From the NCBI GenBank assembly GCA_963422465.1, contig OY730171.1, forward strand, positions 4,546,202 to 4,610,201: a DNA stretch of 64,000 bases, read 5' to 3'. Within the stretch, counting starts at the first letter, position 1, and each line of letters opens with the position of its first letter. The notes under the pieces are model-generated. The model made no database searches. It was given only the letters and a program-made list of their open reading frames with translations, and was not told the DNA's origin. Positions 23,356 to 61,159 of this stretch are shown one piece after another. The DNA is from Lichina pygmaea. Lineage: Eukaryota; Ascomycota; Lichinomycetes; Lichinales; Lichinaceae. The translations under genes were made by a program, and so were the position numbers.

Positions 23356-23363
23356 GTCTTCAA
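23356..23363 (-). promoter_or_regulatory. Putative self-priming primer-binding site of gyp-1c
   Basis: In the sense direction the LTR is followed by CT and then TTGAAGAC. This is the exact complement of GTCTTCAA in the leader (23565-23572), which lies where the transcript should start. No tRNA 3'-end complement was obvious. The arrangement resembles Tf1-type self-priming. Confidence 0.5.
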
Positions 23364-23365
23364 AG

Positions 23366-23924
23366 TGTTGTGGTCTGTACTGTACTGTCCTATCCGAGTA
23401 TAGAATTAGGGCGAGAGGTGGAAGGTAGGTTGGTTCTCACAGGAGAGGAGTGTCAAGGAGTGCGAAGGAGTTTGGTGGAACATGGTGGTGGTGACACCTG
23501 ATCAACGGCTTTGTACAAAAGGATTGTATTGAAGTAGATCTAGTTGTCTGGATCACAACATAAGTTGAAGACGATTGTTCCATAAGGGAACTATCGCTGG
23601 ACTATATAGTGCTGGCCTGTCAAGACGATCAAGATTGTCTTGACAGTCTTGACGTCAAGACAGGTGAGATTGTCTTGACAGTCCCACCATGTTATGCACC
23701 CTGCGTCAAGACAGGTCAGATTGTCTCAATGCTTCATGCATCCTGCGTCAAGACTGGTGAGATTGTCTTGATGCTTCATGCATGTTGTGTCAAGACTCCT
23801 GTGTGTGTCTCGACAGTCACGTGACCCCTTGTTGGTTGGTCACTTGACTTCCATAGTGTCCTCTTGCCTGGCCCGCGGCCTGATTGCCTATAAATGAGTG
23901 GCTCCTATCCCCTGGGTCATAACA
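23366..23924 (-). repeat. 5' LTR of gyp-1c (559 bp)
   Basis: TGTTGTGG...ATAACA, same length as its partner. It contains the sense TATA at 23603-23608 and the putative self-priming leader motif at 23565-23572. Confidence 0.95.
23603..23608 (-). promoter_or_regulatory. Sense TATA box of gyp-1c
   Basis: CTATATAG on the minus strand, about 36 bp upstream of the leader motif GTCTTCAA. The same word and spacing occur in the other gyp-1 5' LTRs. Confidence 0.5.
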
Positions 23925-25596: not shown

Positions 25597-25942
25597 TGTG
25601 ACAAGGCAATAGCAGAGCAGAACTCAAGCCTAACTGATTCAGTAACCTTGACCTGACTTGGCTTGAGACTTGAGACTTGGATTGATGTACAAGATGAAAG
25701 ACAAGGAAGGAAAAGAGAAAAGAAGAAGAGAAGAAGCTGGGGGAGCAGGAGAAGTTCTTATAGGCAGGGGATACAGTGGAGTAAACAGGCAACAGTGCAG
25801 ATGGAACTTGCCAGCAAGGTGTGTGACTTGTGCCAGATATACAACAAGGCAATAGCAGAGCAAACAGGCAACAGTGCAGATGGAACTTCCTGGCAAGGTG
25901 TGTGACTTGTGCCAGATATACAATAAGGCCAGAACTGTGACA
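25597..25942 (-). repeat. 5' LTR of gyp-2a (346 bp, with internal duplication)
   Basis: TGTGACAAGG...CTGTGACA. It is about 79 bp longer than the basic 267-bp gyp-2 LTR because a segment containing AACAGGCAACAGTGCAGATG is present twice. Confidence 0.92.
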
Positions 25943-26592: not shown

Positions 26593-29500
26593 CTAGGTAT
26601 TGGGTTGGGAATAGTGGAGTTTGAAAGCTAGATTAAACTGGTTTAGTCTTTTCAAAGACATAAACCAGTACAAGAACTTCTGTAGTAGCTCTGGGTTTGA
26701 AATAATAGTGGTGAAGTCTTGGGGATTAAAAAAGACTTGTTGTCTTTGTCTTGAATAAAGAGAGCATGAAGAGGTGATATGTTTTGCAGTTTCTTCTGCT
26801 TGGCCACACACACATAGTGGGGTAGGGAAGTCAGGAGCTCCAGCTCTGAAAAGAAAACTTGCCAGACTAATTCTTCCAGTCCTGATTTGCAGCAGCAGAC
26901 TTGCCTCAGCTTTCTGTAACTCTTTGTAGAGCTTCAGATTGTTTTTGTGTGGCTTTTGACAGAAAGTCTGCCAGCCTGGATAGCTTCTTCTTTTCTTCTC
27001 TTCCCATTGGTCTTCCCACTCTTTAGTAAAGAGCTTTTGTAGTTCTTTCTTCGAACTAGCCTGGTTAGTAGTTATTTGACTTAACCAAGTGAATTTCCAC
27101 TTAGGAGAGATAGTTGAGGATTCCTTTAAAGGTTTCTTCAAGAGAGAGGCATAGCTGGAAATAGTGGAAAAGATACTGTCAAGAAAGTATTTGAGAGGGG
27201 AGTTTTGAATAGAAGAAAGAAAACAGGCAGTGCGAAATTTAAAGTATAGGTCTAGAGGTAGAAGAAAAAGCTCACTCTCTAATAGAAAAGAAGGAGTGGC
27301 TTTGAAGGCACCCCCAATAAGTCTTAGGCATCTGTTTTGAAATGAAACAAGAGAAGAGATATTGGAGGATTTTCTTAGAGGGTTAAACCAGATCCCCACT
27401 GCATAGCTCAGTAGAGATCTCAGTATAGCAGTGTACACCAGACGTGATGTGTGAACTGGAAAGCCCCAAGTAGAATAGGAAGTTCTAGAAAGAGAAGAGA
27501 GTGCTTTCTATGCTTTTTGAAGAATAATCCTCTGGTGTTTGTGCCAGTGGAGCTTTGCATCTAGGTACACTCCAAGTACTCGCACTTCTTCTTTTGGTTT
27601 GAGAATCACATTCCCCAGTCTGAGCTTGAGCTGAAGATTGTCTGATCTTCTTCTGGAAAAATGAAGTATTTCATATTTCTCAGGTGAGAAGACTATTCCA
27701 TGACTTGCAGCCCAGGATAGACATTTGTGGTGTGTGTTCTTTAACTTCAGAAGGTTACTTTTCAAGGAGTGACCAAAAGCAAGCAGATTTGTATCATCTG
27801 CAAACCCCAGGGCAGATACACCAGAAGAGGGAGTATGCACAGTCTTATGCAATTCAGAAATGTAGAATAGAAAAAGAATAGGGGATAATGGAGAACCTTG
27901 AGGAACTCCACAATGAATAGGAATAGAATAAGACTCAGAATCATCAAAGACAAGAGTGGTAGAGCACTTATCACAGAAGGAGTAGATCCAGGAAGCTAGC
28001 CAGGCAGGTATTCCTTTTCTTTTCAGAATTTGCTGTAGTATCTTGGGGAGAACTCTGTCATAGGCTTCTGAGATATCCAGTGAGAGTAGGGATGCAACCA
28101 TGCCTTCCTTCCAGACTTTTTCCACTTGGGAGGTTAGAAGGAAAAGTGCTGCTTCTGTGGATCTTCCTTTCCTAAAGCCCATCTGGATATCTGGCAATAG
28201 TCCAGCTTCTTCTGCTATCTTGCTTAGTCTGGCTGCAGCAATAGCTTCCATCAGCTTGCCTGTTGTGTTTAGCAGAGCTATAGGGCGCCAGACTTTAGCT
28301 TGATTGTAGGTTCCCTTGCCAGGTTTCCTCAAGCAGACTGTTTTTGCACTCTTAAATCTTTCAGGGAAGTACTCCAGTTTCCAGCATGTTGAAGTCAGAA
28401 TAGCTAGAGCTTGGCAGAACCTAGGCCCCAGAGCTCTCAGAAATCTATTTGGCAGCTTATCTCTCCCTCCTGCTGTGAAAGGTTTCTTCTTGGCCAGAAT
28501 TTGCTCCACTTCTTCACATGTTACCTCCTGGGAGAGCTGTATCTCAGAGATAGTCTGGGAGCTTTCTGAGCCTGGTTCTGGAACTAGAGCTTTTGGAAAG
28601 AACTGTTGTGAGAAGGCTTTAGTCTTTTCCTCAAAGGTTTTGGCTATTCCTTCTTGTGTTTCCAGGTCAGGAACCAGAGGAAGATCAGGAGTCTTGTTGG
28701 CTTTGGACTTTCCCCACTTTGCAAGCTTCCAGAACTTTGAAGAGCTGGCCAGCTCATGGATTTGGTGTCTGAAAGTGTTCTGTTTTCCATCTCTGACTGC
28801 CTTTTTCTTGAGCTTAGTTGCTTGCTCAAGTTCCTCTTGACTTGCTTGCCTTTTTTGCACTTTTCTTCTTACTCTTCTTTCCTCTGTAACCTTGTTTTGG
28901 ATCTCTTGATTCCACCAGGGAACTGAGTGGCCAGGTTGCTTCTGGAGCTGTGTGGATTTGCTTGCTATTTCTTGGAGAAAGTTGTCAAGATACTCCAAGT
29001 ACTCATCCACTTCATATTTGTCTTGGAAGTGGAAGAGCAGGTGTAGCTTCTCACACTCTACTCTTGCAAGGTTTGAGTCCAGTGTTCTCCAGTTTCTTTC
29101 TGGTTTCCAGATTTTCCTTGGAGGATCCAGGTCCAGGCAGGTTAGTACAGGTCTGTGGTCAGACCCATGAAAGAACTGAAGAGCCACTTTAGAGAAAATC
29201 AGAGAGTTAGAAAGAGAAGAAGAAATAAAAGACAGATCAATAGAAGAACATGGTTTTTCAGAAAGAGATCTTGGTCTGGTAGGGGTGAAAGGTGCAATAG
29301 CTAAATCCAGATTTAAATCTTTCATTAGGTCTTGAAACTTGTTTGCAGTCTCAGAGTACAGTCTTCTTTTCGTTGACCAGTCTGGGTGGTGAAGATTTGA
29401 GTCTGTGAGAAGAATATGTTGTCCTTGTTCTTGTAAAGCATTTTGGAGTAAACAGAGAAGAGCTTCTGATGCCTCTGTGTAGTTTTCTTGACTTGATGGG

Positions 29501-29835
29501 GTGAAGTAGAGATTATGTACCCAAAGAGAAGTAGAAGAGTTTTCCAAGTAGATTTCAAGAGAAACAAAGTCTTTATTCCAGAAGGTAGGATGAAGAGAAG
29601 AGAGTTTCAGATTTTTATTAATAAGAAAAAGTGTTCTGCCAATCTCTGAACAGTAGAGAGGAAGGAAGGAAGAGAAAACAGTTGAAGTGCTTGTTTCTAG
29701 GTGAGAGTTTTTCCAGGGCTCTTGAAGTGCAATAATGTCCATCTCTTGGAGAGCTGAGGTTGCTAGCAGTAGCTCTTGGACTGATTGGCTTTTTTGCACA
29801 TTATACTGGAGAAGTGTCAGCTTTGTGTCTTTCAT
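26593..29835 (-). pseudogene. LINE-B ORF2: endonuclease-reverse transcriptase, one internal stop
   Basis: 1081 codons including the stop. Residues about 1-235 are an apurinic-endonuclease-like domain (LLQYNVQKS, IIALQEPW, LLTDSNLHHPDW, GSDHRPVLT) that would nick the target. The reverse transcriptase is at about 480-690 (WRPIALLN, GFRKGRSTEA, LSLDISEAYDR, GVPQGSPLSPILF, catalytic FADD). The C-terminus has CVCGQAEETAKHITSSC, the Cys/His motif common after LINE RTs. No RNase H domain is evident. An in-frame TAG at 27508-27510 replaces the CAG seen in LINE-A/C, a CpA-to-TpA change. The frame is otherwise open. Confidence 0.95.
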
Positions 29836-31223
29836 GCAGACATCTCAGCATCAAAGATCTTGAAGGAGTTAGCTGGTAGCTTTCCTCCAGAGTTGGCTGA
29901 TCTTGAAGAAAGAATTTGCACTTCTGGGAGTGCACCTCTGAGTCTCTCTGAGCTTCTGCTTGGCTCAGCTGTTTTACGTTTTTTCCCCCCTGGTAGAGAC
30001 TGAGAGAGAGGGAAAGACATAACTGGGGGGGGTTGTAGAGCTGGAACAGAGGTAGCTGTTGGGATCTCATATTTTCCTGGGCGTGTGTTCCATGCTTCTC
30101 TTGCCTTCTTGGCTGCTTCCTGGCGTACTGGACAGACACTGGCCCAGGCTGGGTGAGCTCCTCTGCAGTTGCAGCATTTTGGCTTGAGAAGCTGTTCAGG
30201 AACTTGGCAGGCTCTCCTTTCATGCTGGCCTCCACAGGCACCACACACAGCTTTGTTCTTGCAGAAGCGTGCTTGGTGCCCATAGCCAAAGCACTTGAAA
30301 CATTGTGCAATAACTGTGTCTGCCAGAAAAGGTTCTGCTTCATGCATCCTGTGCCCCAGCACTAGCCCACTCTCAATCAAAAGATTGGCTTGTTCAGGGG
30401 TAGCCAGATCCAGGTGGAGAGAGGTAACTGGCTTCTTTTGAGCTATAGCCTTCTTAGACCAGTAGACTCTCAGGATGGTGATTTGCTTGCTCAGAGATGG
30501 GTTGCTGTTCTGGATTATCTGGCGGGTTTTCTCCAGGTCTTCAGGTTGGATATCTTCTGTTCTGACTCCATGGATCAGAACTGGAAATCTCTTGGGCTGG
30601 ATGGTTGCTTCCTTTGTGAAGATAGCTGATACCCAGGCAGGGTTTTTCTCTAGGAAGACTTTAGTCTCTTGGCTTTCTGTGTTAATAAGGATATCCCCTG
30701 AAGGAAGTTTCCTTACTGCTCTGACCTGCTTGTTGTAGGGGCTGGGTAGTCTGTCTTGAAGAGCCTGGAAAAGCTGGATGTGAGTTCTATTAGCCATGTC
30801 AGGTGGCTGGATACCAGGATGTACAAGAACTTCTTTGAGAATTCTTGCAGGTAGAGGGATTTGTGCTGGAATAGATTTTTGGACAGCCTGGGCATATGAT
30901 GGCTTGGCTTCTTGTTTGTCCAGCCGCTTGTTGATATTCTCCAGCTCCTGGAAGATTCTGTTGGTGAGGCCAGTGGAGCTAGACTGGGCTTCTGTAGGGA
31001 AGGAGTTCTTTTTGATATTTTCCCAGCTTTTCAGAATGGATTCTGGGACTGGTTGAGTTTTGATCCAGGAGTCTACTAGTTTGTAGTCACTCTGGGGAGC
31101 TGGTTGGGGGGTAGGAGAGCTGGACTGGGTGCTAGCCAGACTGGGAGCTGGTTGGGAGAGTATAGCTGGTGTAGCTCTGGTGTTACTTTCTGAAAAGGTG
31201 GGTTTTTTCTTCTTGGGAGCCAT
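29832..31223 (-). CDS. LINE-B ORF1: Gag-like RNA-binding protein
   Basis: An intact 463-residue frame. The N-terminus is basic then Ser/Pro-rich (MAPKKKKPTFSES). The middle (about 110-290) has the conserved core with WVSAIFTKEATIQPKRFPVL. Three zinc knuckles lie at about 305-370 (CFKCFGYGHQARFC, CGACGGQHERRAC, CCNCRGAHPAWASVC). ORF1 proteins of this type coat the LINE RNA. The stop overlaps the ORF2 start as ATGA (29832-29835), which suggests termination-reinitiation. The start fits because the 5' UTR upstream is stop-rich and LINE-F begins at the equivalent Met (MTLKKKKPS). Confidence 0.95.
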   Translation of the reverse strand: MAPKKKKPTFSESNTRATPAILSQPAPSLASTQSSSPTPQPAPQSDYKLVDSWIKTQPVPESILKSWENIKKNSFPTEAQSSSTGLTNRIFQELENINKRLDKQEAKPSYAQAVQKSIPAQIPLPARILKEVLVHPGIQPPDMANRTHIQLFQALQDRLPSPYNKQVRAVRKLPSGDILINTESQETKVFLEKNPAWVSAIFTKEATIQPKRFPVLIHGVRTEDIQPEDLEKTRQIIQNSNPSLSKQITILRVYWSKKAIAQKKPVTSLHLDLATPEQANLLIESGLVLGHRMHEAEPFLADTVIAQCFKCFGYGHQARFCKNKAVCGACGGQHERRACQVPEQLLKPKCCNCRGAHPAWASVCPVRQEAAKKAREAWNTRPGKYEIPTATSVPALQPPPVMSFPLSQSLPGGKKRKTAEPSRSSERLRGALPEVQILSSRSANSGGKLPANSFKIFDAEMSA

Positions 31224-38900: not shown

Positions 38901-40678
38901 TCTTGTCACACTTCAATTTCAAGATCAGCTACTGTCCAGGCAGTCAGTGTAAGGCCAATGCCCTCACTCGACATTCCCAAGACCTCCTGTCAGACAGTGA
39001 TCCCCTTCAAGACTTCATAGAGTAAGTCATCCTCAAGCCCAAGAATCTTGCACATTCAGAGGTTCAAGTCAAGCCTATCCAGATCCTGAGACATTCAGAA
39101 GCTGCACCAGTTAACACTGAACCTGATACTGCACCTTTTTCAGACATCATCCAAGCTGCCTATAACAACCTTGCTGAAGGTGATCCAGTGGCAACAGTGT
39201 CACAGATGCTAAGGGATAGTGTCAGGCACAGTCGAGAAGTGTCTCTCTCAGACTGCAGCTTGGAAAATAACTGTCTCTTCTACAAGAACTGACTCTGGAT
39301 CCCTGAGAACAATAAGCTACACCTACACCTGTTCCAAGAAGTCTATGACCAAGCAATGGCTGGCCACACTGGGATTGCCAAGACCCACAATCTTTTGTCT
39401 TGTTGGTACTATTGGCCAAAGATGGTGAACATCATACAGCAGTACATCAGGAATTGTCATGTCTGCTCTCAAGCAAAGTCTGCCTGTGATCACCAAAAAG
39501 AGCTGCTGTCTCTTCCCATGCCTCAGCAATGTTAGCAGGATCTGGCTATGGATTTCATTACTGACTTGCCCAAGTTAAGAGATGCCTGCTTCCCTGGTGC
39601 CAAGCACATCTGGGTCATCACTAACCATCTCACCAAAGAACACCACTTTGTGCCATGTGCTGAGATAACAACCTTGCATCTTGTCTGGATGTTCATCCAG
39701 TTTGTTGTCCGTACCTATGGCTTGCCCAGGAGCATTGTCTCAGACAGAGGAGGTCAGTTTGTCAGCTTATTCTGGAAAGCACTCTGTGTCCATCTTGACA
39801 TCATGCTACAACTATCCTCAGAACACCACCCAGAGACAGATAGTCAGACAGAACAAGAGAATCAGGAGCTTGAACACTACCTGAGATCCTATGTCAACTA
39901 TCTCCAAGATGACTGGGTCCAATGGCTTCCTCTGGCAGAGTTCACACAGAACAACTCCCAGTCTGATTCCTCTGGCATGTCACTGTTCTTTGCCAACAAA
40001 GGGTTCCATCCACAGCTCAGCATCACACCCATGAGTGAAGCCTGCAACCAGGATGCTATGGAAATCTCTGGAGAAATGACACAGATTCTGGAACAGTTGC
40101 AAGCTGAACTCCGACTATCCCAGGAAGCTCAAGCTCACACTGCCAATTTGCATCAAGTCCTGTCACCATCCTATCAAACTGGAGATCTTGTTTGGCTGAA
40201 TACCAAGAACATCAGGACACACCGCCCATGCAAAAAACTTGACAACAAGTGGATTGGACCATTCAAGGTGTTGAAGATAGTCGGAAGCTGTGCCTGCTAT
40301 CTGGAGCTTCCACACACTCTCAAGATCCACCCTGTCTTTCATGTTTCCCTTCTATGTCTGACACCTGCTAATCCTATCCCTGGCCAATCAAATGAACATC
40401 CTGGCTCTGTCATTGGTCAAGACACAGATGAAGAGTTCCAGGTTGAAGAAATCCTTGACTCCAAGCCAGCAACATCTTGACAGAAGTTCAAGTACCTGGT
40501 CAAATAGTCTGGATAGCCAATTGAAGATGCCACTGAAGAGCCTATTGAGCATCTTGACAACACTAAAGACACTATCTACAACTTCCATGAGAAATACCCA
40601 AGGAAGCCACAGCCACAGAACTACACCCACGAGCAGCCTGAGGCTCACAGAAGTTCGCCATGTGAAGGAGGAGGGTAA
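35982..40678 (+). pseudogene. gag-pol fossil of gyp-2b
   Basis: Gag starts at 35982 (MSQQPDQAMPVAG) with a knuckle near 36785 (CFYCGNQGHVSTFC). The protease-like segment (SGCSAFGCIG) is near 37060, reverse transcriptase with YVDD at 37680-38335, RNase H at 38580-38960 (ETDTSDYVSGAVLSQ), integrase at 39540-39870 (MDFITDLP, SDRGGQFVS, HHPETDSQTE) and a chromodomain at about 40430-40560. The reading runs through the polypurine tract, and its last codon abuts the 3' LTR. Decayed. Confidence 0.92.
40664..40678 (+). promoter_or_regulatory. Polypurine tract of gyp-2b
   Basis: GAAGGAGGAGGGTAA lies directly before the 3' LTR, the expected site for plus-strand DNA priming. Confidence 0.8.
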
Positions 40679-41055
40679 TGTCACAGTTCTGGCCCAGTTA
40701 CATATCTGGCACAAGTCACACACCTTGCTGGGAAGTCCTATCTGCACTGTTTGCCTGTATACTCCGCTGTTGCTGGGAAGTCCTATCTGCACTGTTTGCC
40801 TGTTTGCTCCTCTGTTGCCTGATCCCCTGCCTATAAGAACTTCTCCTTCTCCCCCAGCTTCTTCTCTTCTTCTTTTCTCTTTTCCTTCCTTGTCTTTCGT
40901 CTTGTACATCAATCCAAGTCTCAAGTCTCAAGCCAAGTCAGGTCAAGGTTACCGAGTCAGTTAGGCTTGAGTTCTGCTCTGCCATTGCCTTGTCACAAGG
41001 TCAAGGTCACCGAATCAGTTAGGCTTGAGTTCTGCTCTGCTATTGCCTTGTCACA
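40679..41055 (+). repeat. 3' LTR of gyp-2b (377 bp)
   Basis: TGTCACAG...TTGTCACA. It carries the same right-end duplication as the 5' LTR plus an extra 45-bp tandem copy around CTGGGAAGTCCTATCTGCAC, which the 5' LTR lacks. Confidence 0.95.
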
Positions 41056-43838: not shown

Positions 43839-44221
43839 CATTACTCTTCTTCTTGGACAACAAACCCAGCTGCTTGCAAAGACAGATCTTGCAAGGAAGA
43901 AGCTATGACTCCTACTTCTTGATATCCTGCAGCTGAGTCTTGAGCTGAGAGCACTTAAGCTCTATCTTTTCCTATTCTGATTCTGCAAGATGAAGATCAT
44001 AATAGTAACTTTTCTTGATGTACTGACTGCAAGATGTGGACTCCAAGCTGACAACACACTTGGCATAGTCATGACAACATGTGCTGCATGAAACTTTGGA
44101 CATCTTGCCTATTTTGCCAACACAAGAACTGAGGGCTCTGCAACAGTTGTTTCAAGATGTCTGGAGTATAGTGAAAAGAAAGTGAGAGAATCTGGGGACA
44201 GAACCTTTAGAAGAAGAGGAT
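43839..44221 (-). pseudogene. Family-3 3' internal remnant with antisense accessory frame
   Basis: The right part (about 44060-44221) matches the 3' internal region of gyp-3a (GACAACA, TTGCCTATTTTGCCAA, TCTGGGGACAGAAC), ending in the polypurine tract AAGAAGAGGATAG before the LTR. On the minus strand, about 44100 down to 43845, it encodes a decayed relative of the gyp-3a accessory product (shared CC-x4-AKCVVS and YDLHL-x-ESE). It is truncated by the inverted LTR at 43838. Fossil. Confidence 0.65.
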
Positions 44222-46368: not shown

Positions 46369-46635
46369 TGTGACAAGGCAATAGCAGAGCAGAACTCAAG
46401 CCTAACTGATTCAGTAACCTTGACCTGACTTGGCTTGAGACTTGAGACTTGGATTGATGTACAAGATGAAAGACAAGGAAGGAAAAGAGAAAAGAAGAAA
46501 AGAAGAAGCTGGGGGAGCAGGAGAAGTTCTTATAGGCAGGGGATACAGTGGAGCAAACAGGCAACAGTGCAGATAGAACTTCCCGGCAAGGTGTGTGACT
46601 TGTGCCAGATATGCAACAAGGCCAGAACTGTGACA
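46369..46635 (-). repeat. 3' LTR of gyp-2c (267 bp)
   Basis: TGTGACAAGG...CTGTGACA. The polypurine tract lies directly to its right on the minus strand (GAAGAGGGGTAA). It has no internal duplication. Confidence 0.96.
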
Positions 46636-46665
46636 TTACCCCTCTTCTTCACATAGTGAACTTCT

Positions 46666-47264
46666 TGTTACAACCCAGGGGATGGGAGCCACTCATTTAT
46701 AGGCAATCAGGCCGCGGGCCAGGCAAGAGGACACCATGGAAGTCAAGTGACCAACCAACAAGGGGTCACGTGACTGTCGAGACACACAGAAGTCTTGACG
46801 CAGAATGCATGAAGCATTGAGACAATCTCACCAGTCTTGACACAGGATGCATGAAGCATCAAGACAATCTCACCAGTCTTGACGCAGGATGCATGAAGCA
46901 TCAAGACAATCTCACCCGTCTTGACGCAGGGTGCATAACATGGTGGGACTGTCAAGACAATCTCACCTGTCTTGATGTCAAGACTGTTGAGATAATCTTG
47001 ATTGTCTTGACAGGCCAGCACTATATAGTCCAGTGATAGTTCCCTTATGGAACAATCATCTTCAACTCATGTTGTGATCCAGACAACTAGATCTACTTCA
47101 ATACAATCCTTTTGTACGAAGCTGTTGATCAGGTGTCACCACCACCATGTTCCACCAAACCCCTTCGCACTCCTTGACACTCCTGTCCTGCGAGAACCAA
47201 CCCACCTTCCACCTCTCACCCTAATCCTATACTCGGATAGGACAGTACGGTACGGACTGCAACA
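46666..47264 (+). repeat. 5' LTR of gyp-1d (599 bp)
   Basis: TGTTACAACCC...ACTGCAACA. It contains the CAAGAC/GTCTTG array (about 46795-47010), the sense TATA CTATATAG near 47022-47029 and the leader motif region near 47058-47066. CT and TTGAAGA follow the LTR. Confidence 0.95.
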
Positions 47265-47282
47265 CTTTGAAGACCCTCAAGG

Positions 47283-50200
47283 ATGAGTACCTCAGGAGCA
47301 ACCAACCCCAACTTCCCAGATGGAAAGATTAGCGTCGCCAAGCCAGACCTGTTCTACAGTGAAAGAAACAAGGTCAACGACTGGCTCATGCAACTCCAAG
47401 TCTACTTTCAATTCCAACCAGAGATAAAGCTGCCTAAGAAGAAGTGGCCCCTCTTCGCAACCACTTACATGAGAGGCAATACTTATCAATGGATCAAGCC
47501 CTACGTCAACAAACATCTCTCAGGAAACAGAGACCACGACGGCACAACAGAATGGATGACAAAATAGACACAATTCAAGGACAAGATCAAAAGGATCCTT
47601 GGACTATCTAACAAAGACAAAGTGGCTATACGAATGATCCAGCACATCAAACAACAACACTCAGCTGCAGAGTACACCACGTAGTTCAAACAATACTTAG
47701 TACTGACTGACTGGGACAACAACACCCTGATGGTCATGTACCAATGTGGACTCAAGGAAAACATGAAGGATGAAATCACCTTCAACAGATGAGCAGTCAA
47801 CACACTGGACGAACTCATCGCACAAGCAATCAACATTGATGACAAGCTATTCAAGCGAGCGATGGAAAAACACCACGATGGAGGATACAGCCACTCTGCA
47901 TGGCATGTGAGCAACCACTACAAGCCACCTAACAAGGCACTGCCACATGACCCATATGGCTATGCACCCATGGAACTGGATGTAGTCCACCACAAGGGAA
48001 GGTTCACAAAGGGAAGGAACAACAAAAAGAGGAAAGCACTGAAGTGCTATGCCTGTGGCAAGCTAGGCCACATGGCGAAAGACTGTCATTCAAAGAACAA
48101 GGTGCACCGACAGCAACTTAATACGCTTGACGGAGACTGGAATGTCATCAAGCCAGAGGACTCACCAGGAGAGGCTCAGCTATCCCTTGAACAATAGGAC
48201 AACTACAATCAGACATTGGAAGCAGCCCACCAACTGGCAACATCAGGAGGCAAGGACCTACCAGAACAGACAGGTCAGGATAAGGGACAGGAGCTCTTAA
48301 CCACCTCTGATGGGGACCAAGACAAACCTGTGTCTATCAAAGAAGAAATACCACAAGGAAGCTATGCTTACAGCATGGACCCACAAAATCTACAGCACGG
48401 TGAACTACAGTGGAGGTTTTGCACAAAGCACTACTGCACCTACCACAAACAACTACAAAGGTACGGAGGACATTCACCCTACCACACCACCTGCCACAAG
48501 TATTGGGTCAATTGCGAGAAGGATGCGTGTGAGATCTATCTTTGAGACAAACACCAACACACCGCATTCCCCGGGCACACACATGATTGGTATGAACGCC
48601 TCATGTTCCTACAGCAAGGTAACAACTACAACTGCTACATTGACAATTGGCAGTACTGCCTCAAGCCTGGATGTGACAAGCATCAGCAAGACAAATTCAT
48701 GAACAGATTCCTCAGAACTGATGGGAGTGGCTGGACCTATTGCCCAGTCAGTGGAAAGACACTTCAATCAGGAAAAGACTGAACTCCCTTGTCAAGGGGT
48801 GACATCGGGAGCTCAACAACATGACCCCTAGCAACGCAAAGCACCTGTGATTGCCTGTGTCACTACACACCAACACGCCAGTACAGACATACACACTTGT
48901 GGACTCTGGAGCCAGTGGAAACTACATCTCAAGACAACTTTATGATACCCTCAGCACTGGAAGAAGATGCAAGCAGCAGCCCTATCAGCTCATGATGGCA
49001 AATGGACAGACAGAGCTAGTCTGCCATAAGACGCAGCCAATGGAAATAGTTACCAGACACCATGCTGAAAGGATCCACCTTAATATTGTTGAGTTGGCCA
49101 CTCAGGATATCTATTTGGGGATGTCTTGGCTAAAGAAGTACAACCCAGTTGTTAACTGGAAGACAGGAGTACTCACATTTAGGAACTGCACTAACAACAC
49201 AGCTCAGACCTGTTACCAGCCGCAGAAGGTGTGGACAGATGAGGGAAGGAGTCCTCAGTGGAACCTCACTGACAGAAAGGACAACTCTCAAGAGAAGAGG
49301 TCCACCTTGACAGGCACACCCCGGAACCAGATGGCCAAACAGTCAGAGATGAAGAGAGAGGAAGTTGTTAACCCTCTGGAGATCCCTGAAGAGTACTGAC
49401 CTGGGTATGATAACCTCTTTCAGGAAGAGACAACGACAGCAGTGTTGCCTAAGCACCAACCTTGGGATCATGAGATCAAGTTGCAACCAGGGACAGAGCC
49501 AGGATTTGGACCAATTTACCAGTTATCAGAGAAAGAGCTCCAAGTACTTCGCGAGTACCTGGAGGAAAACCTGAAAAAGGGTTTCATTCGAGAATCTCAA
49601 TCGCCAGCAGGATACCCAATACTATTTGCACCAAAGAAAGACAGAAGTCTTCAACTTTGTGTGGATTACAGGAAACTCAACAACATTACCATCAAGAACT
49701 GATATCTATTGCCAAATACGAACAAATTGCAAGACAGGATCAGCCAAGCTACAATCTTTACCAAGCTGGACTTGAAAGGAGCATACAACCTGATACACAT
49801 GAAAGAAGGAGAAGAATGGAAGACAGCCTTCAGAACCTGATACAGACACTACAAGTATCTGGTTATGCTATTCGGACTCACAAACACACCAGCAACATGT
49901 CAAGCATTGATCAACAACGTCATCAGAGCACACCTGGACCAAACAGCTATCACCTACCTGGACAACATTCTTGTCTACTCGAACACGCAACAGGAACATA
50001 CCAAACATGTGAAGGATGTTCTACGATGCCTACAACAGGCAGGGCTCAAGCTCAACCCAAAGAAATGCAAGTTCAACAAACCAGAAGTTGAATTCCTTGA
50101 ATATGTTATAGGGATTAAAGAGATCAAGATTGACCCTGAGAAAATCAAAGTGATTCAGCAATGGCCAACACTGATGTCAGTTAAGGAAGTACAAGCCTTT

Positions 50201-52120
50201 CTAGGATTTGCCAACTTCAACTGACAGTTCATTAAGAACTACTCACAGATGGCAACACCACTAACAGAACTCACGAAGAAGGACGTGGAGTACTGGTGGA
50301 CAGAGAGACAACAAAAAGCATTCCAACAGCTCAAGGACACTTGCGCCAAGGAACCAGTTCTCCTCAACTTCAAGACAGGCCAACCAACACAAATCAAGAC
50401 AGACACTTCAGATCAGGTAGTAGGAGCATGTCTATACTAACAGGCAGACAGCAAGTGGCACCCAGTTGCCTACTACTCACAAAAAATGACACAAGCAGAA
50501 CAAAACTATGATATCCATGACAAAGAGCTATTGGCAGTCGTCAACGCACTCGAACACTGGAGAGTGTACGCGGAAAGCAGTTCCAAACTCACTGTTCTCA
50601 CAGACCACAAGAATCTGACAATATTCACAACAACCAAGAAGCTGAACAGACAGCAAGTCAGATGGGCTGAACTCCTAGGGCAATACAAGTTCAAGATCTT
50701 GTACACCCCTGGACAAGACAACAGGAGAGCAGACACACTAAGCCAACAAAAAGACCACATGGAAGATGATGAACACCAAGGAATGATCTTACAGCAGGAC
50801 CAGCAAGGAAACCTGGTGCCTCAGCCACAGATCAACAAGCTCACGGCAGAAGACACTGAAGAACTAATAAGGAACTACCATGACAATCCAGCACATGGTC
50901 ACCCAGGAATCTCCAAGACCACAGACCTTATCCAACAGGCAGGGAACAATATCATTAACCTCTGACAACATGTCACAAACTACATCAGCAAGTGTCTACT
51001 ATGCCAGAAAAACAAACATGGAAGACACAAGCTATACGGAGAAGGACACCTGAACATGATACTGAGAGGCCTGTGGGAAGACATGTCAATGGACTTCATC
51101 ACAAAGCTACCCAAGTCCAAAGACCCAGTCACAGGAATCACCTACGACTTGATTATGGTGATAGTGGACAGATTCACAAAATATCTAATAGTGGTACCAT
51201 TCAAGGAGACCCACACAGCAGAACAGTTGGGACACCTTTTACTGGACAGATTGGTTAGAGACCACGGAGTTCCAATCACGATCATTACAGACAGAGACAA
51301 ACTCTTCACATCCAACTACTGGAAGACAATCAGTGCAGCCATGGGAACAAAACCCAAAATGTCTACGGCCTATCACCCACGAACTGACAGCCAGACAGAG
51401 TGAGCAAACCAAGTCCTGGAGACTTACTTACAGCATTACATCAACCAGACCCACAGCAATTGGGTACAGTTATTACTGGTGGCACAGCTGGCAATCAACC
51501 AGCACAGATCAGACTCAACAAAGGAATCACTATTTTTTGCCAATTTTGGATAACATGTGAATATCAGGATACCAAGCAGAGCTTCACCAAACACAGAGAA
51601 AGCACTCCAACATAACAAGCTCCTACAACAAACACACATGATGATGAGGCACTACCTTCAAGAGACCTCAGAAAGAATGCAACGTCAAATGGACAAGAAA
51701 TCAAAAATGGCACCTCAGCTAAAGAAGGGGGATAAAGTCTACCTCCTTACAAGAAATTGGAAAACAAAGAAACCAAAGACAAAGAAACTTGACAACATCA
51801 AGGTCAGACTATTTTCAGTCAAAGAAAAAACAGGACCAGTCAACATCAAGATACGACTACCAAGGGATGCCAGAGTCTATCCAAACTTTCATATATCAAT
51901 GATTGAACCAGCCGACCAGAGCACACCCTTGCAGAAAACATTCCATTACCAACCTGAAGAAGAACAGGAATTCAAGGCTGAACAGATCCTGAAGAGAAAA
52001 GGTCAGTGATACCTTGTCAAGTGGAAAAACTACCCAGACTCGGAAAATACCTGGGAACCACTCAGGAACCTCGTGAACTGCCAGCTCCTCCTGCAGCAGT
52101 TCTGGCAGAAGCAGGACTGA
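47283..52120 (+). pseudogene. gag-pol fossil of gyp-1d
   Basis: Gag starts at 47283 (MSTSGATNPNFPDGK). A knuckle (CYACGKLGHMAKDC) is near 48040-48085 and W-x2-C-x4-C-x2-H repeats at about 48400-48700. Protease (DSGASGNYIS) is near 48900, RT 49440-50220, RNase H 50370-50640, integrase with HHCC-like and DDE parts 50870-51400 and the chromodomain near 51960-52075. Because it lies on the plus strand, this copy shows the family layout most plainly. Decayed. Confidence 0.92.
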
Positions 52121-52562
52121 ACAGCTCAGCCTGCAGTGCGGACATGTCAATGACTGTCGCCAACAAATCTTCACCATCCACCTCCATTTCAGCAACAAGG
52201 CACTGGAGCTTCTTCTTCGCTCGACCCTCAGCACCCTCAAGAACCTTTCGCTTTCAGGACACACAAGCCTGCAGCTTGGCAAGCTGCTCAACAAGAGCAT
52301 CCCGCTTGGCCTCATCAACAGCCAAATCCTCGCGAAGGTTATCTCGAGTCATGTTCAACAACTCCCAAGAAAGTGACACACAGGACTTCCCACAACAAGT
52401 GCATTCAGCGCACTTCAACTTATTGTTGTTGTCAGACATTCAGAAGCAGGGCTTGTGGTTCAAAACACAGAAGTCACACGGAGCAAGTGACACAAAGTTA
52501 TGATCACAGATCTGGGCTGCCAGTTGGTTTCGGTAAGCAGAGGCATGTGATTTTGCAGACAT
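52062..52562 (-). pseudogene. Antisense accessory frame of gyp-1d (Cys-rich plus coiled coil)
   Basis: A 501-bp segment on the strand opposite gag-pol, between pol and the 3' LTR. It overlaps the last 59 bp of pol (52062-52120). The stretch 52254-52439 begins MSDNNNKLKCAECTCCGKSC and is nearly identical to gyp-1c. The downstream part has a charged helical composition. A TATA sequence in the 3' LTR (about 52636-52646, minus strand) points into it. Product role unknown. Decayed copy. Confidence 0.68.
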
Positions 52563-52589
52563 ACTCAAGAATTCATCAGGATGATGAAT

Positions 52590-52606
52590 GAAGGAGAGGA
52601 GGGTAG
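52590..52606 (+). promoter_or_regulatory. Polypurine tract of gyp-1d
   Basis: GAAGGAGAGGAGGGTAG directly abuts the 3' LTR. The same tract is seen (inverted) beside the 3' LTRs of gyp-1b and gyp-1c. Confidence 0.8.
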
Positions 52607-53205
52607 TGTTACGACCCAGGGGATGGGAGCCACTTATTTATAGGCAATCAGGCCGCGGGCCAGGCAAGAGGACACCATGGAAGTCAAGTGACCAACCAAC
52701 AAGGGGTCATGTGACTGTCGAGACACACGGGAGTCTCGACGCAGCATGCATGAAGCATTGAGACAATCTCACCAGTCTCAACGCAGGATGCATGAAGTAT
52801 CAAGACAATCTCACCAGTCTTGATGCAGGATGCATGAAGCATCAAGACAATCTCACCTGTCTTGACACAGGGTGCATAACATGGTGGGACTGTCAAGACA
52901 ATCTCACCTGTCTCAACATCAAGACTGTCAAGACAATCTTGATTGTCTTGACAGGCCAGCACTATATAGTCCAGTGATAGTTCCCTTATGGAACAATCAT
53001 CTTCAACTCATGTTGTGATCCAGACAACTAGATCTACTTCAATACAATCCTTTTGTATGAAGCTGTTGATCAGGTGTCACCACCACCATGTTCCACCAAA
53101 CCCCTTTGCACTCCTTGACACTCCTCTCCTGCGAGAACCAACCCGCCTTCCACCTCTCACCCTAATCCTATACTCGGATAGGACAGTACAGTACAGACCG
53201 CAACA
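52607..53205 (+). repeat. 3' LTR of gyp-1d (599 bp)
   Basis: TGTTACGACCC...CCGCAACA, equal in length to the 5' LTR and with the same number of array units. Differences are mostly transitions. Confidence 0.95.
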
Positions 53206-56200
53206 CTTCTGTGAGCCTCAGGCTACTTGTGAGCGTAGTTCTGTGGCTGTGGTTTCCTTGGGTATTTCTCATGGAAGTTGTAGATGGTGTCTTTAGTGTT
53301 GTCAAGATGCTCAATAGGCTCTTCAGTAGTATCTTCAATTGGCCATCCAGACTATTTAACCAGGTACTTGAACTTCTGTCAAGATGTTGCTGGCCTGGAG
53401 TCAAGCATTTCTTCAACCTGGAACTCTTCATCTGTGTCTTGACCAATGACAGGGCCAGAGTGTTCATTTGATTGGCCAGGGATAGGATTAGCAGGTGTCA
53501 GACGTAGAAGGGAAACGTGAAAGACAGGGTGGATCTTGAGAGTGTGTGGAAGCTCCAGATAGCAGGCACAGCTTCTGACTGTCTTCAACACCTTGAATAG
53601 TCCAATCCACTTGTCGTCAAGCTTTTTGCATGGGTGGCGTGTCCTGATGTTCTTGGTATTCAGCCAAACAAGATCTCCAGTTTGATAGGATAGTGACAGG
53701 ACTTGATGCAAATTGGCAGTGTGAGCTTGAGCTTCCTTGGATAGTCAGAGTTCAGCTTGCAACTGTTCCAGAATCTGCGTTATTTCTCCAGAGATTTCCA
53801 TAGCATCTTGGTTGCAGGCTTCACTTGTGGGTGTGATGCTGAGCTGTGGATAGAACCCTTTGTTGGCAAAGAACAGTGACATGCCAGAGGAATCAGACTG
53901 GGAGTTGTTCTGTGTGAAATCTGCCAGAGGAAGCCATTGGACCCAGTCATCTTGGAGATAGTTGACATAGGATCTCAGGTAGTGTTCAAGCTCCTGATTC
54001 TTTTGTTCTGTCTGACTATCTGTCTCTGGGTGGTGTTCTGAGGATAGTTGTAGCATGACGTCAAGATGGGCACAGAGTGTTTTCCAGAATAAGCTGACAA
54101 ACTGATCTCCTCTGTCTGAGACAATGCTCCTGGGTAAGCTATGGGTACAGACAACAAACTGGATGAACATCCAGACAAAATGCAAGGTTGTCATCTCAGC
54201 ACATAGCACAAAGTGGTGTTCTTTGGTGAGACAGTCAGTGATGACCCAGATATGCTTGGCACCAGGGAAGCAGGTATCTCTTGACTTGGGTAAGTCAGTA
54301 ATGAAATCTATAGCCAGATCCTGCTAACGTTGCTGAGGCACAGGAAGAGACAGCAGCTCTCCTTGCTGATCATGGGCAGACTTTGCTCAAGAGCAGACAT
54401 GACAATTCCTGATGTACTGCTGTATGATGTTCACTATCTTTGGCTAATAGTACCAACAAGACAGAAGATTGTGAGTCTTGGCAATCCCAGTGTGGCCAGC
54501 TATTGCTTGGTTATAGGCTTCTTGGAACAGGTGTAGGTGTAGCTTATTGTTCTCAGGGATCCAGAGTCAGTTCTTGTAGAAGAGATGGTTATTTTCCAAG
54601 CTGCAGTCTGAGAGAGACACTTCTTGACTGTGCCTGACACTATCCCTTAGCATCTGTGACACTGTTACCACTGGATCACCTTCAGCAAGGTTGTTATAGG
54701 TAGCTTGGATGATATCTGAAAGAGGTGCAGTATCAGGTTTAGTGTTAACTGGTGCAGCTTCTAAACATCTCAGGATCTGGACAGACTTGACTTGAACCTC
54801 TGAATGTGCAAGATTCTTGGGCTTGAGAATAACTTGCTCCATGAAGTCTTGACAGAGATCACTGTCTGACAGGAGGTCTTGGAAACATCAAGTGAGAGTG
54901 TCAGCCTTACACTGACTGCCTGGACAGTAGCTGGTCTTGAAATTGAAGTGTGACAAGAACTCACTCCAACAGGCTTGACAGTGGGAAAGGCACTTTGACA
55001 ACATGAAGTACTCCAAGTTCTTATGATCAGAGATTATCTTGACAGGTTCTGGAGATTTTTCAAGCTCTGCTCACTATTCTTCAAAGGCACAGACAATTGC
55101 CAGCAACTCTTTGTTGTAGATCTTGTAGTTGCATTCTGCTGGCAGGTGGCAGTGTGACAAGAAGGCAACAGGGTGTAGAACTCCTTCATGGTCTGGCTGT
55201 GACAGGACAGCACCAGAGATATAGTCAGAAGCATCAGTCTCAACAACACACTCCTTCTCCAGATCAAAGTACTGCAGGATAGGTGCAGTACTGAACACCT
55301 TGATGCTTTCAAACAAGTGCTACTCTGGGGTTTCCCACTTGAAGGTAACATTCTTCTTGGTCAGAGCTGTGAGCAGGGATGCAAGCTTGGCAAAGTTTTT
55401 GATAAACCAGTGGTAGAAGTTTGCAAAGGCAATGAAGCTCTGCACTTCCTTGAGACTGGCAGGAGACTTCCACTCCTTGATGGTATCAGTCTTGGCTGGG
55501 TCCATGCTCACAGATCTGGGTTGGCTATCTTCAGTGGCAGACTGAATAATGAGGCCAAGGTACTTGACTTGATGCACTTCAAAGTCACACTTGGAGATGT
55601 TAACTTGCAGGCTTGTATCTTGTAGTCAACTGAGAACAAGCTTGACATACTTCTGGTGTTCCTTGAGTGTCTGACTGTAGACAAGGATGTTGTCCACATA
55701 GGCAGTGCCAAAGACATCAAGGATATCAGGTCCCAAAACATCATTGATGTAGTTCTGGAACATGCTTGGAGTATTGGCAAGACCAAAGAGCATGACAAGG
55801 TATTTGTAGAGGCCTGAGTGTGTGCGGAACACAGTCTTCCATTCTTCACCTTCCTTCATCTGGATACAGTTGAAGGCACCAACAATGTCAAGCTTGGTGT
55901 ACCACACAGCTTTGCAAAGCTGGTCCAATATCTCCCGGATCAGTGGTAGGGGGTAACAGTTCTTGATGGTGATAGTATTGAGTACTCTGTAGTCTACACA
56001 GAAACATAATCCACCTCCTGGCTTCTTGACAAAGAGGACTGGTGTAGCAGTAGGTGATGAAGATGCTTGAATGAAGCCCTTGTTCAGGTTCTCTGTCAGG
56101 TACTTCTTGAGAACTTTGAGTTCTTCTCTGCTTATGCCGTACAGAGGTCCAGAGGGTGCCTGGGTTCCTGGTTCCATCTTGATCTTGTGGTCAACTCCTG

Positions 56201-57895
56201 GGTGTAGAGAAGGAAGCTTGTCAGCGTCATCCTTGCTGAAGATGTCCAGGAACTTGTGGTACTGAGCAGGGAGAAGTGTGGCAGAATCCACACACTTCTT
56301 TAGCTTTAACACCTGCTCAATGTCTCTCAGAGAAACACTGAACACCTGGTGATCTGGCTTGGCAGCAAGGAGAGAAAATGTGGTAGTATTGATAGGGATT
56401 GGCGTGGCAGAAAGAGGCTTGGGATCCTGAGACTTTCCAGCAGACATCTTGGCTTCAAGATCTAAAGAGATTGGATAGCTATTGTTTGACTTGAGGTATG
56501 TGAATCAGCAGTGATCTGACTTGAACATGATTGAGGTGTTTGTCTAATCAATGTGTGGCCTGTGCTTCTGGAGCTATGGCATCCCCAGAATCACATCATA
56601 GTGAAGACCAGGAGACACAAAGAGAGAGACTTCCTCCTGGTGCACACCATGTGCTGTGGTCATGATTGTCTTGGCAAGATGTGTGGTTTGTGACGTCTTG
56701 CCATCAAACAATCGCAATGTTCGTGGGTAGGGGAGAGGTTCTTGGTGAAGAGATTGTGCAAAGGAAGCACCAATGCAGCCAAATGCTGAACAGCCAGAGT
56801 CAATAAGAGTATTGCACTTGAATTTCCCATCTAGGATACAAGGAAGAAACAAGCACTTACTGTCCAATTGCTGGTCTGGAGACAGATAGCCAACATAGAG
56901 ATCCTTTTCATGTTCTTGGGTGTGACGATAACTAAGGACTACTTGTTTTCTGACTCTGGAGTAGTCTCAACAGTGGCAGACTTGGTGGTGGTTGTGGTGA
57001 TGGCAACAACAGGCATGCTTTTCACTAGACAGAAGGTTGAGACATGAACTTGGTTCCCACAGTAGAAGCAGAGGCCTTTGCTTCAGTGATGTTCTTGCTC
57101 TTCTGGTGTCAGCTTAGAGTGGCTGAGATCCATGGTAGGACTTGGTGGCTGTGGCGTGAAGACTGGCTTGATGAACCCTGGACACAGAACTAAAGCTTCT
57201 GACTGTGGAACTGAGGCTTGGGTGGGAGGTGCTTGACGTGGACAGCAAGAGTTGGCAGAAGTGGCACACAACTGGTTGTCCTGCAGCTGGCATTCCTCAA
57301 CAAGCTTCTGATAGCTGATGTCCTTGAGGTTGATGCTGACAAGCTGCTTGGCAAGCTCTTCAGAGACAGTGTATCGAAGATGGTACTTCAAGGCCTTGTT
57401 GTTGAAGCCTGTGCGTGGAGCATACTGATTGAACTCTATGAAGAACTTGGCAAAGGAACAGTTGGCCTGACGTAAGGTGATAAGCTTTCTCTGAGCTAGG
57501 AACTCTGGGTCTGGGTCGGAGAAGGTGTTCCGGAGATCTTGGACAATGTCATGCCAGTCAATGTACTGGCCAGCCATGATCTTAGCTAAGATGTAGGACT
57601 GCGCAGTGCCAGTCGTGTGTGAAAAGATGTATGCAATCCACGATGTTTCTGTGGGGTACCAGTCAGTGTTGAGTGTCATCTTGAGTGACAGTGATGTGAT
57701 GAAGCTCTCAAGCTTCTCATGTGTGATTTCCGTGTTTCCACCATTGCCACTGAAGATCTCTGGGTCAGCAGTGTGTTCAGACTTGGACTTGGGAGTAGTG
57801 TTAGTAGCTTGAATTTGCATGAACTCTGCAAACATTTTGTGAAGGAACTTGTTATTTCCAGCAACTGGCATGGCTTGGTCTGGTTGTTGAGACAT
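53206..57895 (-). pseudogene. gag-pol fossil of gyp-2c
   Basis: Gag start at 57893-57895 (MSQQPDQAMPVAG). The knuckle region is near 57050-57080, protease near 56780-56840, RT 55626-56250, RNase H 55020-55320, integrase 53745-54330 and the chromodomain near 53290-53430. The last bases of the element's internal part lie left of gyp-1d at 46636-46665. Decayed. Confidence 0.9.
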
Positions 57896-57953
57896 GACAA
57901 GGATGTGAACATGGCTTGGTGAAGTGTGTTATGGTTGGGTACGTCTTTCGTAG

Positions 57954-58220
57954 TGTGACAAGGCAATGGCAGAGCAGAACTCAAGCCTAACTGATTCAGT
58001 AACCTTGACCTGACTTGGCTTGAGACTTGAGACTTGGATTGATGTACAAGATGAAAGACAAGGAAGGAAAAGAGAAAAGAAGAAGAGAAGAAGCTGGGGG
58101 AGCAGGAGAAGTTCTTATAGGCAGAGGATACAGTGGAGCAAACAGGCAACAGTGCAGATGGAACTTTCTGGCAAGGTGTGTGACTTGTGCCAGATATGCA
58201 ACTGGGCCAGAACTGTGACA
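57954..58220 (-). repeat. 5' LTR of gyp-2c (267 bp)
   Basis: TGTGACAAGG...CTGTGACA. The basic gyp-2 LTR length without duplications. Confidence 0.96.
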
Positions 58221-59048
58221 CTCACTTCTCTATAAGCTCTTTTCCCAGATCACTGTTGTTGTTTCTACTCTGAGAACACCTCCAAAGTCTCTGTCTACTG
58301 TCACACCTAACTGGAAAGCAAGATAGCTAGAAGAACTAACCACTAACCAAGATTACTCTAAGAAACAATTTCAAGAAGTGTTTCAGAAAGAGTGGAAAGC
58401 CAGATGGCAGGCAAACAGACAAAAGTGTTCTCCAGTCTGGGAGCTATTTTGCAGACTACCCCAAAGGAAAAATCTCAAAGTTTTCAAAGACTTGAGAAAA
58501 GCTGAAGCTAGTCTTTACTTGCAGATTCTATCAGCAAGGATAGGACTAGCCAGCTTTCTTTTCAGAGCAAATGTTCCAGACTTCCAATCCCCTCTATGTT
58601 CCTGTGGTTTTGGAGAAAAGACTGCTCAATATATCACTTTCTCTTGTAACAAGTTTCTTACTCAAAGACAGCAAGCCACTTTTCTTTCCTACAATTTCTC
58701 TACTTTACTTCAAAAGCCTAAAGTGCTTAAAGAATTTCTTCTCTGGTTTATGTCTTTGAAAAGACTAGACCAGTTTAACTTAGCACACCAACTCTTACCA
58801 GAAAACCTATCATTCCTGTGATTTTATTTTCTCCAGACACTGCATATTCTCCCAGATAACTCTCTAGTCTTACCCAAGTCTCAGTTTTTATCTCTTCAAA
58901 GGTTTTCTGGGAAAAAAAAGTATGTATCTAGAAGTTCTGCATGGCTCACCAGCCAAACCAGAGTAAGAATAAAATAAAATAAAAAAATAAAAATACCCAG
59001 ACACACAGACCACCCACATTCTGTGTGAACATGGACTGGCTCTTAACA

Positions 59049-60030: not shown

Positions 60031-60525
60031 TGTTAAAGGCCAGGCCGGGTTCACACAGAAGGCGGTTCGGTCTTGCTGCTTTGCAGGGTGGGTTCTGGAC
60101 AGGGACTCGGTAGAGGAATAGACAGGTGGGGTAACTCTCCTGTGCTATTGTCTCAGTACGATGTGTGCATTGGTGTTCAGCCTGGAGAGCTAATCCCTCC
60201 GGACCCTTTGGGGGGTTTTTATACAGATGCCCCGAGGGGGGGGGTCTCCTCAAGGGGTATCATCCTTTTGCGTGGACAAGCTCCTCGCTTAGAGACTGCT
60301 TGTCCACCGGACGAGCTCCTCACTTAGGGACTGCTTGTCCACCAGACAAGCTCCTCGCTTAGGGACTGCTTGTCCACCAGACGAGCTCCTCGCTTAGGGA
60401 CTGCTTGTCCACTGGACAAGCTCCTCACTTAGCTCCTGCTTGTTCACCAGATCAGTCAGATGTTGTTCTGCATGACTAACATTCCTCCCTCGCTTACCTG
60501 GGCTGTTCCAGCCTAGGCCTTAACA
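60031..60525 (-). repeat. 3' LTR of gyp-3a (495 bp)
   Basis: TGTTAAAGGCC...GGCCTTAACA. The inner edge follows a purine-rich tract on the minus strand (GGAGGGAGAGGATAG). It contains a tandem palindromic array. Confidence 0.9.
60274..60455. repeat. Palindromic tandem array in gyp-3a LTR, about 35-bp unit
   Basis: About five units. In the clearest, GACAAGC and GCTTGTC form perfect 7-bp inverted arms around CTCGCTTAGGGA. Variation is mainly CG versus CA/TG. Confidence 0.88.
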
Positions 60526-60643: not shown

Positions 60644-61159
60644 GGCAAAATAGGCAAGGAATCAAAAATCACATGCGGTGCTTGTTGTCGTGACCACGCC
60701 AAGTGTGTTGTGAGCTCCACATCATCTTTTTGTTGTCAGTGTGTTGAGAAGGGTTGTTGCTACGACCTTCATCTCTCGGAATCAGAATGGAAGAAGATAG
60801 AACTTGAGCGTGAGCAGCTCAAGGCTCAGCTGTGAGAGACTGATGACCAATTGTCAAAGTTGCTTCCCCAGCAGATCTGCCTTCACTGGCAGCTGGGTTA
60901 TCTCTCTCAGAAAGAGGCTGATGTCATCTGTTGTGAGCTGTCGGCCATCAAGGATCAAGAGTCCCTTGATGCTCAGAAGCAGAAGACTCTCCATGTTATT
61001 CGCGAACAGGAGGCCAGTCAGACTGCTGCTCCTCTGTCCTTTGAGGATGTCTTCTCCTCAGAGACTTTGGCTTCTCTCAAGCTGTTGTCACTGTTGGACC
61101 TGGTTGCTGCGGGTTTGCTCAGTGGTAATCCACCAGCTTCTGGTTTATCGCAGGGCTGA
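60644..61159 (+). pseudogene. Antisense accessory frame of gyp-3a
   Basis: Plus-strand frame between the 3' LTR and pol. The first part is cysteine-dense (CGACCRDHAKCVVS, CCQCVEKGCC near 60674-60760), followed by a charged helical stretch (ESEWKKIELEREQLKAQ) and a Leu/Ser-rich C-terminus. It ends at 61159 and overlaps the pol end (61119) by about 40 bp, tail to tail, as in gyp-1. Sequence similarity to the gyp-1 frame is limited to the layout: Cys cluster then coiled coil. Function unknown; at least one interruption. Confidence 0.62.

Follow-up and report, generated by a model that had tools for sequence, protein, structure and literature searches.

Whether a reading frame that runs against gag-pol in the gyp-1 retrotransposons of Lichina pygmaea was ever a gene, how it would have been expressed and what its product may have done for the element are the questions raised by the 64,000-nucleotide stretch of DNA analysed here (the window). 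Four gyp-1 copies were found in the window: copy A (46666-53208, plus strand), copy B (17465-23925, minus), copy C (6255-12824, minus; called gyp-1b in an earlier sequence-only reading) and copy D (2-4949, minus), the 3' end of which lies outside the window; 3' ends are present in A, B and C. Copy A is a Ty3/gypsy element with a chromodomain, having an LTR pair (46666-47267 and 52607-53208, plus strand) and Pfam matches for reverse transcriptase (RVT_1, in 49841-50221), RNase H and integrase (RT_RNaseH and Integrase_H2C2, in 50486-50965; rve, in 50966-51400), SH3_Tf2-1 (in 51638-52009) and the chromodomain (Chromo, E 5e-15, 52010-52117) that with the stop ends pol (52010-52120, plus strand); four further gyp-1 pieces matched no Pfam family. 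CpG decay does not account for all mutations among the copies, as A and B differ by 94 CpG-compatible transitions, 87 other transitions and 6 transversions, and A and C by 96, 128 and 8 such events, respectively. Elsewhere in the window, split matches place copies B and A apparently nested in gyp-3, a third gypsy-like element (16454-25845 and 46369-58223), and 27508-31223 holds a pair of ORFs on the minus strand that overlap each other, 775 and 463 aa long, the 775-aa ORF having endonuclease and reverse transcriptase domains and probably representing a fairly well-kept non-LTR element.

The sequence-only reading had described an antisense frame of 501 bp in the interval between pol and the 3' LTR of three gyp-1 copies. 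Such a frame (here, the aORF) is indeed present in copy A at 52062-52562 (minus strand; 166 codons plus the stop), in copy B at 18068-18568 (plus) and in copy C at 6880-7380 (plus), and in all three it is exactly 501 bp long, antisense to gag-pol and positioned between pol and the 3' LTR. Its length and place were borne out, and internal stops, not given in that reading, occur at codons 41 and 103 in A (two), at codons 11, 41, 105 and 164 in B (four) and at codons 11, 105 and 135 in C (three), and all eight of those within the first 438 nt of the three copies are TGA. Since every copy has internal stops, the aORF is a decayed gene, no longer open. An overlap of 59 bp with the 3' end of pol, also described earlier for two copies, was measured in A (pol stop ending at 52120) and B (18510), with 53 bp in C (7328). 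Two other frames of copy A, one antisense with 150 codons from stop to stop (51896-52348) and one sense with 173 codons (51982-52503), are both longer than the three pieces into which its aORF is cut; length alone therefore cannot single out the aORF, and it is the codon tests that do so. An extra ATG precedes that of the aORF by 13-14 nt in each copy (52560-52607 in A); read from it, a frame of three codons closes immediately ahead of the aORF in A and B.

Codon-level comparison of the aORF was undertaken among the three copies, dN/dS across copies being a check that had been named beforehand. Copies A and B differ at 17 aORF sites, all transitions with no transversions, and dN is about equal to dS, which by the substitution pattern is neutral decay as expected after insertion. 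The comparison with copy C was of another kind, some 31% of sites being different from those of A (154 of 501) and B (156 of 501). Outside the pol overlap, the A and C differences number 41, 29 and 73 at codon positions 1, 2 and 3. For codons 1-146, outside the overlap and with stops left out, dN and dS were 0.244 and 1.909 (NG86) or 0.231 and 1.311 (LWL85) for A versus C, and 0.262 and 2.004 (NG86), 0.259 and 1.261 (LWL85) or 0.298 and 1.033 (YN00) for B versus C. The resulting dN/dS of about 0.13-0.29 across the three methods (YN00 for B versus C) is rough, as dS is near saturation, and gives the codon constraint outside the pol overlap that the check was to look for, with A/B versus C as the one independent comparison. 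A and C have the same residue at 93 of 146 positions; 2000 random placements gave 62.5 on average and never more than 76.

Two explanations that would deny the aORF a coding past are addressed by these same comparisons. In four of the other five frames, dN between A and C is near or above dS; the fifth is the mirror sense frame, which shares its wobble positions with the aORF, and it could be argued that the constrained frame is this one, as an extra frame or an extension of pol on the sense strand that the aORF simply mirrors. Its NG86 values (dN 0.294, dS 1.155, A versus C), a score above those of free shuffles (reached in 0 of 1000, z 3.8) and its 173 open codons in copy A (51982-52503) all favour it, whereas shuffles that keep the wobble phase reached its score in 111 of 1000 trials and that of the aORF in none of 1000, it retains 81 identical residues of 145 compared with 93 of 146, and it has six stops in copy C. 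The wobble-phase shuffles part the two frames and favour the antisense frame over its mirror as the constrained one, and a sense-strand origin of the signal is regarded as very improbable. A chance open frame devoid of function, for which it may be said that A and B are too alike to reveal constraint (the 17 transitions noted above), is refuted by the codon tests of A/B versus C and has against it the same length and place in all three copies; its probability is close to nil. From the codon patterns it is concluded that, during the divergence of the A and C types, the aORF was a genuine gene coding for protein, a conclusion drawn from the single independent comparison of A/B with C.

The divergence of copy C extends beyond the aORF. 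Between A and C, gag-pol is 94% and R-U5 91% alike with almost only transitions, whereas the aORF and U3 are strongly different. In copy A this diverged cassette, flanked by nearly identical gag-pol and R-U5, spans 51990-52958, and its counterpart in C lies at about 6490-7450; the left break falls between about 51978 and 52130, near the end of pol, and the right break immediately ahead of the sense TATA, near 52958. In gag-pol, compared over 4281 sites (positions 620-4900, numbered on the first copy in each pair), all six pairs among A-D are 93.8-95.4% alike and differ by 5-13 transversions. Five pairs are 91.4-95.9% alike in R-U5 (positions 380-600), and the 88.1% of C and D arises because the 5' LTR of C is longer and the fixed coordinates include some U3. 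For U3 itself (positions 1-330), identity is 94.5-95.5% in the pairs formed by A, B and D; between C and each of these three it is 62.5-64.4%, with 52-56 transversions in 278-308 sites. Between A and C, transversions affect 55 of 501 sites in the aORF versus 8 of 4689 in gag-pol (Fisher p about 2e-48). By this distribution of substitutions, the aORF and U3 would have changed hands jointly, as a single block. Simple drift does not describe copy C, its aORF and U3 being of a different, older lineage on the same gag-pol.

A route for such an exchange can be proposed from standard reverse transcription. The aORF and U3 adjoin at the 3' end of the genomic RNA; first-strand transfer onto the 3' end of another RNA would start the exchange, and one template switch near the end of pol would then move the aORF with U3 and place the new U3 in both LTRs. 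As a single switch would move both by virtue of their adjacency, joint exchange requires no functional link between the protein and U3, though it would preserve one. Modular U3 subfamilies are found in tobacco Tnt1, with coding region and R-U5 alike and U3 different; the block exchanged in gyp-1, unlike these, also includes an antisense gene. Tandem arrays with units of 35-51 bp were observed in each U3 type (52732-52877, 12442-12678 and 60274-60448).

The 3' LTR also provides a putative promoter for the aORF. An antisense TATA sequence, TATAAATA, lies in the 3' LTR of copy A at 52635-52642 (minus strand), with the same motif in copy B at 17988-17995 (plus; inner edge at 18023) and TATATAAA in copy C at 6803-6810 (plus; inner edge at 6836). 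A TATA facing the aORF 34-35 bp from the inner LTR edge had been proposed earlier; the motif and its placement hold in all three copies, and the distances measure 36, 36 and 34 bp (TATAWAW starts in A, B and C). The aORF ATG follows 44, 44 and 43 bp beyond the edge. In base shuffles, the chance of TATAWAW at 20-45 bp from the edge is about 0.0016 for A and 0.0018 for C, for a motif picked post hoc. It had further been claimed that the LTR of copy C has mostly changed and its TATA been kept. The TATA does stand at 34 bp; the change, however, is limited to U3 upstream of the sense TATA, and R-U5 is conserved. With U3 otherwise about 63% alike between A and C, the antisense TATA must have been kept or regained. 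The motif occurs in the 5' LTRs as well, where it would point out of the element.

Other signals of this region are the sense core promoter TATATA (52963-52968, plus strand, in the 3' LTR of copy A), just before which the strong A/C divergence ends, and a purine-rich stretch between the aORF start and the 3' LTR (52590-52606, plus strand, copy A), presumably the polypurine tract. A transcript starting 25-35 bp downstream of the antisense TATA would begin at about the LTR edge, and from the TATA position we infer antisense transcription of the aORF from the 3' LTR. A 10-bp palindrome, GTCACGTGAC, is found some 97-110 bp inside gyp-1 LTRs, in both U3 types and in five of seven LTRs.

The predicted product was examined for its cysteines and its likely fold. 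Nine Cys residues are common to all three copies, and six of them fit CX2CX6CX11CX2CX6C in each of the three, a spacing within the Zn(II)2Cys6 consensus CX2CX6CX5-12CX2CX6-8C. Among 20000 full shuffles, the broader Zn2Cys6 pattern arose never for A, once for B and 7 times for C, and it arose in 48, 51 and 269 of 20000, respectively, when shuffling was confined to residues 19-66; given the local Cys content, the six-Cys pattern is only moderately unlikely. In Gal4 the spacing is CX2CX6CX6CX2CX6C and the Cys cluster is followed by a coiled coil, and in the gyp-1 product the cluster is likewise followed by a predicted helix; unlike Zn(II)2Cys6 proteins, the gyp-1 product has no Pfam Zn_clus match and is poor in basic residues from the second Cys to the third. 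The stop-free 93-codon stretch of the aORF in copy C (6913-7191, plus strand), holding the Cys cluster and the helix start, was modelled with seven window sequences (mean pLDDT 68.4, pTM 0.35). A helix was predicted at residues 55-92 of the piece, with pLDDT of 84-94 in blocks 61-90 and at least 90 over 22 residues, and the Cys region was modelled at a low pLDDT of about 48-65 by blocks. The Cys cluster and coiled-coil-like tail of the sequence-only reading are thus seen in the nine shared Cys and in the predicted helix, the Cys part at low model confidence.

Database searches gave the product no family. The HMM search suggested earlier for a Cys-cluster/coiled-coil protein returned no Pfam family reaching cut-off, a second scan had no match, and Zn_clus was not among the matches up to E 10, a range in which HMMER filters drop most matches above about 0.1. 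A Pfam match of residues 80-142 to DDE_Tnp_ISL3, with E 0.01 and 16.1 bits where the cut-off is 23, was rejected as a chance match of the helix region, as were PDB matches to Tektin, PelD, SAS-6 and uL13. Neither the PDB sequence search with the product (best E 0.98) nor Foldseek with the modelled piece (best E 3.2) found a significant match. With no significant Pfam, PDB or Foldseek match, the feature is named here a Cys cluster with Zn2Cys6-like spacing rather than a family member. Relatives of the copy A aORF were absent from viral_contigs, which is not a fungal genome collection and in which single-protein queries find close relatives only, as were relatives of the gyp-1 RNase H/integrase piece, the gyp-2 aORF and the gyp-2 integrase piece; genome_contigs and plasmids, likewise not fungal genome collections, yielded no relative.

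A comparable frame exists in a second gypsy family of the window, gyp-2, whose pol is encoded by the minus strand and whose DNA is about 59-60% identical to that of gyp-1 A-C over 2.7 kb. Its antisense frame (60659-61159, plus strand; one internal stop and no ATG at the start in this copy) occupies the same place as the gyp-1 aORF and has a Cys cluster and a helix-like tail, with a Cys spacing that departs from the Zn(II)2Cys6 consensus in the last gap; the start of the frame with an ATG is found in a second, more decayed copy (43975-44103, minus strand). Homology of the gyp-1 and gyp-2 products was considered and is not borne out by BLASTP (E 1.4), although place and architecture agree. The gyp-2 frame is also 501 bp long, and as the first Cys of the pattern is residue 29 in gyp-1 versus residue 6 in gyp-2, the equal length is probably coincidence. 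Between the two gyp-2 copies, differences at codon positions 1, 2 and 3 number 42, 26 and 49 in 300 sites, a weak support for coding. In neither gyp-2 copy does a TATA occur in the 70 bp next to the inner edge of the LTR, so the arrangement seen in gyp-1 is not general. A gyp-3 antisense ORF (40388-40909, minus strand) was rejected as one of the same kind; it overlaps LTR repeats and pol and has no such Cys cluster.

The original paper on brtn, an antisense gene of the Boty element of Botrytis, is reportedly that of Zhao et al. (2011). Together with gene23 of maize Grande and genes of RIRE2, Retand and PvRetro13, brtn is counted among the aORF-3R genes, which lie antisense between pol and the 3' LTR in most copies and are of unknown function; Grande is reported to be transcribed in antisense, and Retand weakly so (PMC7264820). 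A transcript of Monilinia resembles truncated Pol and BRTN, its strand not being stated in that passage (PMC5987419). Boty, like gyp-1, has a chromodomain (PMC4227169). In all three copies the gyp-1 aORF shares the aORF-3R position and orientation, and its keeping as a coding frame across copies is seen between A/B and C, A versus B being without constraint; the likeness to brtn and the other genes is drawn from their descriptions. The gyp-1 aORF thus belongs to a known kind, and the exchange of aORF and U3 as a block is an added finding: neither such an exchange nor a U3 TATA facing the aORF is mentioned for aORF-3R elements in sections 5, 7 and 8 of PMC7264820. In the open-access literature, no paper joining Zn2Cys6 with antisense LTR elements was found, nor any title matching this case for fungal or basidiomycete antisense ORFs, coiled-coil ORFs or U3 template-switch subfamilies (compare PMC8365987, PMC7264820 and PMC5408684). 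A further parallel is HBZ of HTLV-1, a bZIP regulator made from an antisense transcript of the 3' LTR (PMC3185765 and PMC3736048). The gyp-1 product is unlike HBZ in having a Cys cluster and no bZIP, and the analogy is by arrangement only. Pairing through a coiled coil is a property of bZIP proteins.

Taken jointly, these findings are best accounted for, with a probability of about 0.62, by gyp-1 parents that carried a real antisense gene, swapped with U3, presumably transcribed from the LTR and, less certainly, encoding a nucleic-acid-binding regulator. In this chromodomain Ty3/gypsy element, sequence comparison shows that a gene of about 166 codons between pol and the 3' LTR evolved under protein-level constraint and was exchanged with U3 as one block. 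Transcription would have entered the element from U3 of its 3' LTR, with the TATA 34-36 bp inside the LTR edge as promoter and a start near the polypurine tract. Less certainly, the small protein, with its Cys cluster and then a long helix, may have been a dimeric nucleic-acid-binding accessory factor that acted on the element's own promoter or RNA, by a logic like that of HBZ of HTLV. All three copies with the gene in the window have since decayed. The earlier proposal of a bidirectional LTR that also makes an antisense mRNA for a DNA- or RNA-binding protein is partly supported, by the conserved coding frame and by the TATA in three of three gyp-1 3' LTRs, while nucleic-acid binding and a regulatory or protective effect stay conjectural. 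An antisense accessory regulator is thus the most likely, if unproven, identity of the aORF.

Other roles have to be set beside this. The antisense RNA itself could matter, controlling the element through dsRNA or siRNA, with the protein a relic or irrelevant; stops in all three copies and the non-coding antisense RNAs known in other LTR elements (PMC7264820) agree with this, but a function of the RNA alone gives no reason for one frame to favour synonymous changes, and the protein-level constraint between the A and C types counts against it, making it unlikely. Rather more conceivable, if still improbable on balance, is a real protein that served the particle or the pre-integration complex, as a nucleic-acid chaperone or in nuclear entry, and not transcription. 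Such roles have been suggested for plant aORF-3R proteins, and Grande GENE23 is nuclear (PMC7264820); a Cys cluster with a helix would fit a nucleic-acid-binding assembly factor. Against this, no link between the aORF and the particle was seen, the frame is separate from gag-pol, and by the position of the TATA it would have had a promoter of its own.

An extension of the regulator reading is that aORF and U3 form a swappable cassette of self-regulation, in which a dimeric Zn2Cys6-like factor would bind tandem, partly palindromic arrays in its own U3. Inverted repeats of 7 bp (A-type) and 8 bp (gyp-2) occur in the U3 units, and palindrome arms as long were reached by 9 of 500 shuffles for the A-type, 0 of 500 for gyp-2 and 81 of 500 for the C-type, and by 500, 126 and 377 of 500 for three gyp-3 units. 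These results across U3 types leave the operator idea mixed, and the cassette is considered speculative and doubtful. If it were true, specificity would move along with its targets, much as a phage repressor does with its operators, and elements with the same gag-pol could switch regulatory type by one template switch, escaping the control of resident copies.

In summary, antisense accessory genes of LTR retrotransposons are known (PMC7264820), and the gyp-1 case offers both measurable protein-level constraint and a candidate promoter facing the gene. As nature has joined two aORF-U3 types to a common gag-pol, recognition of its own U3 by the product would be directly testable.
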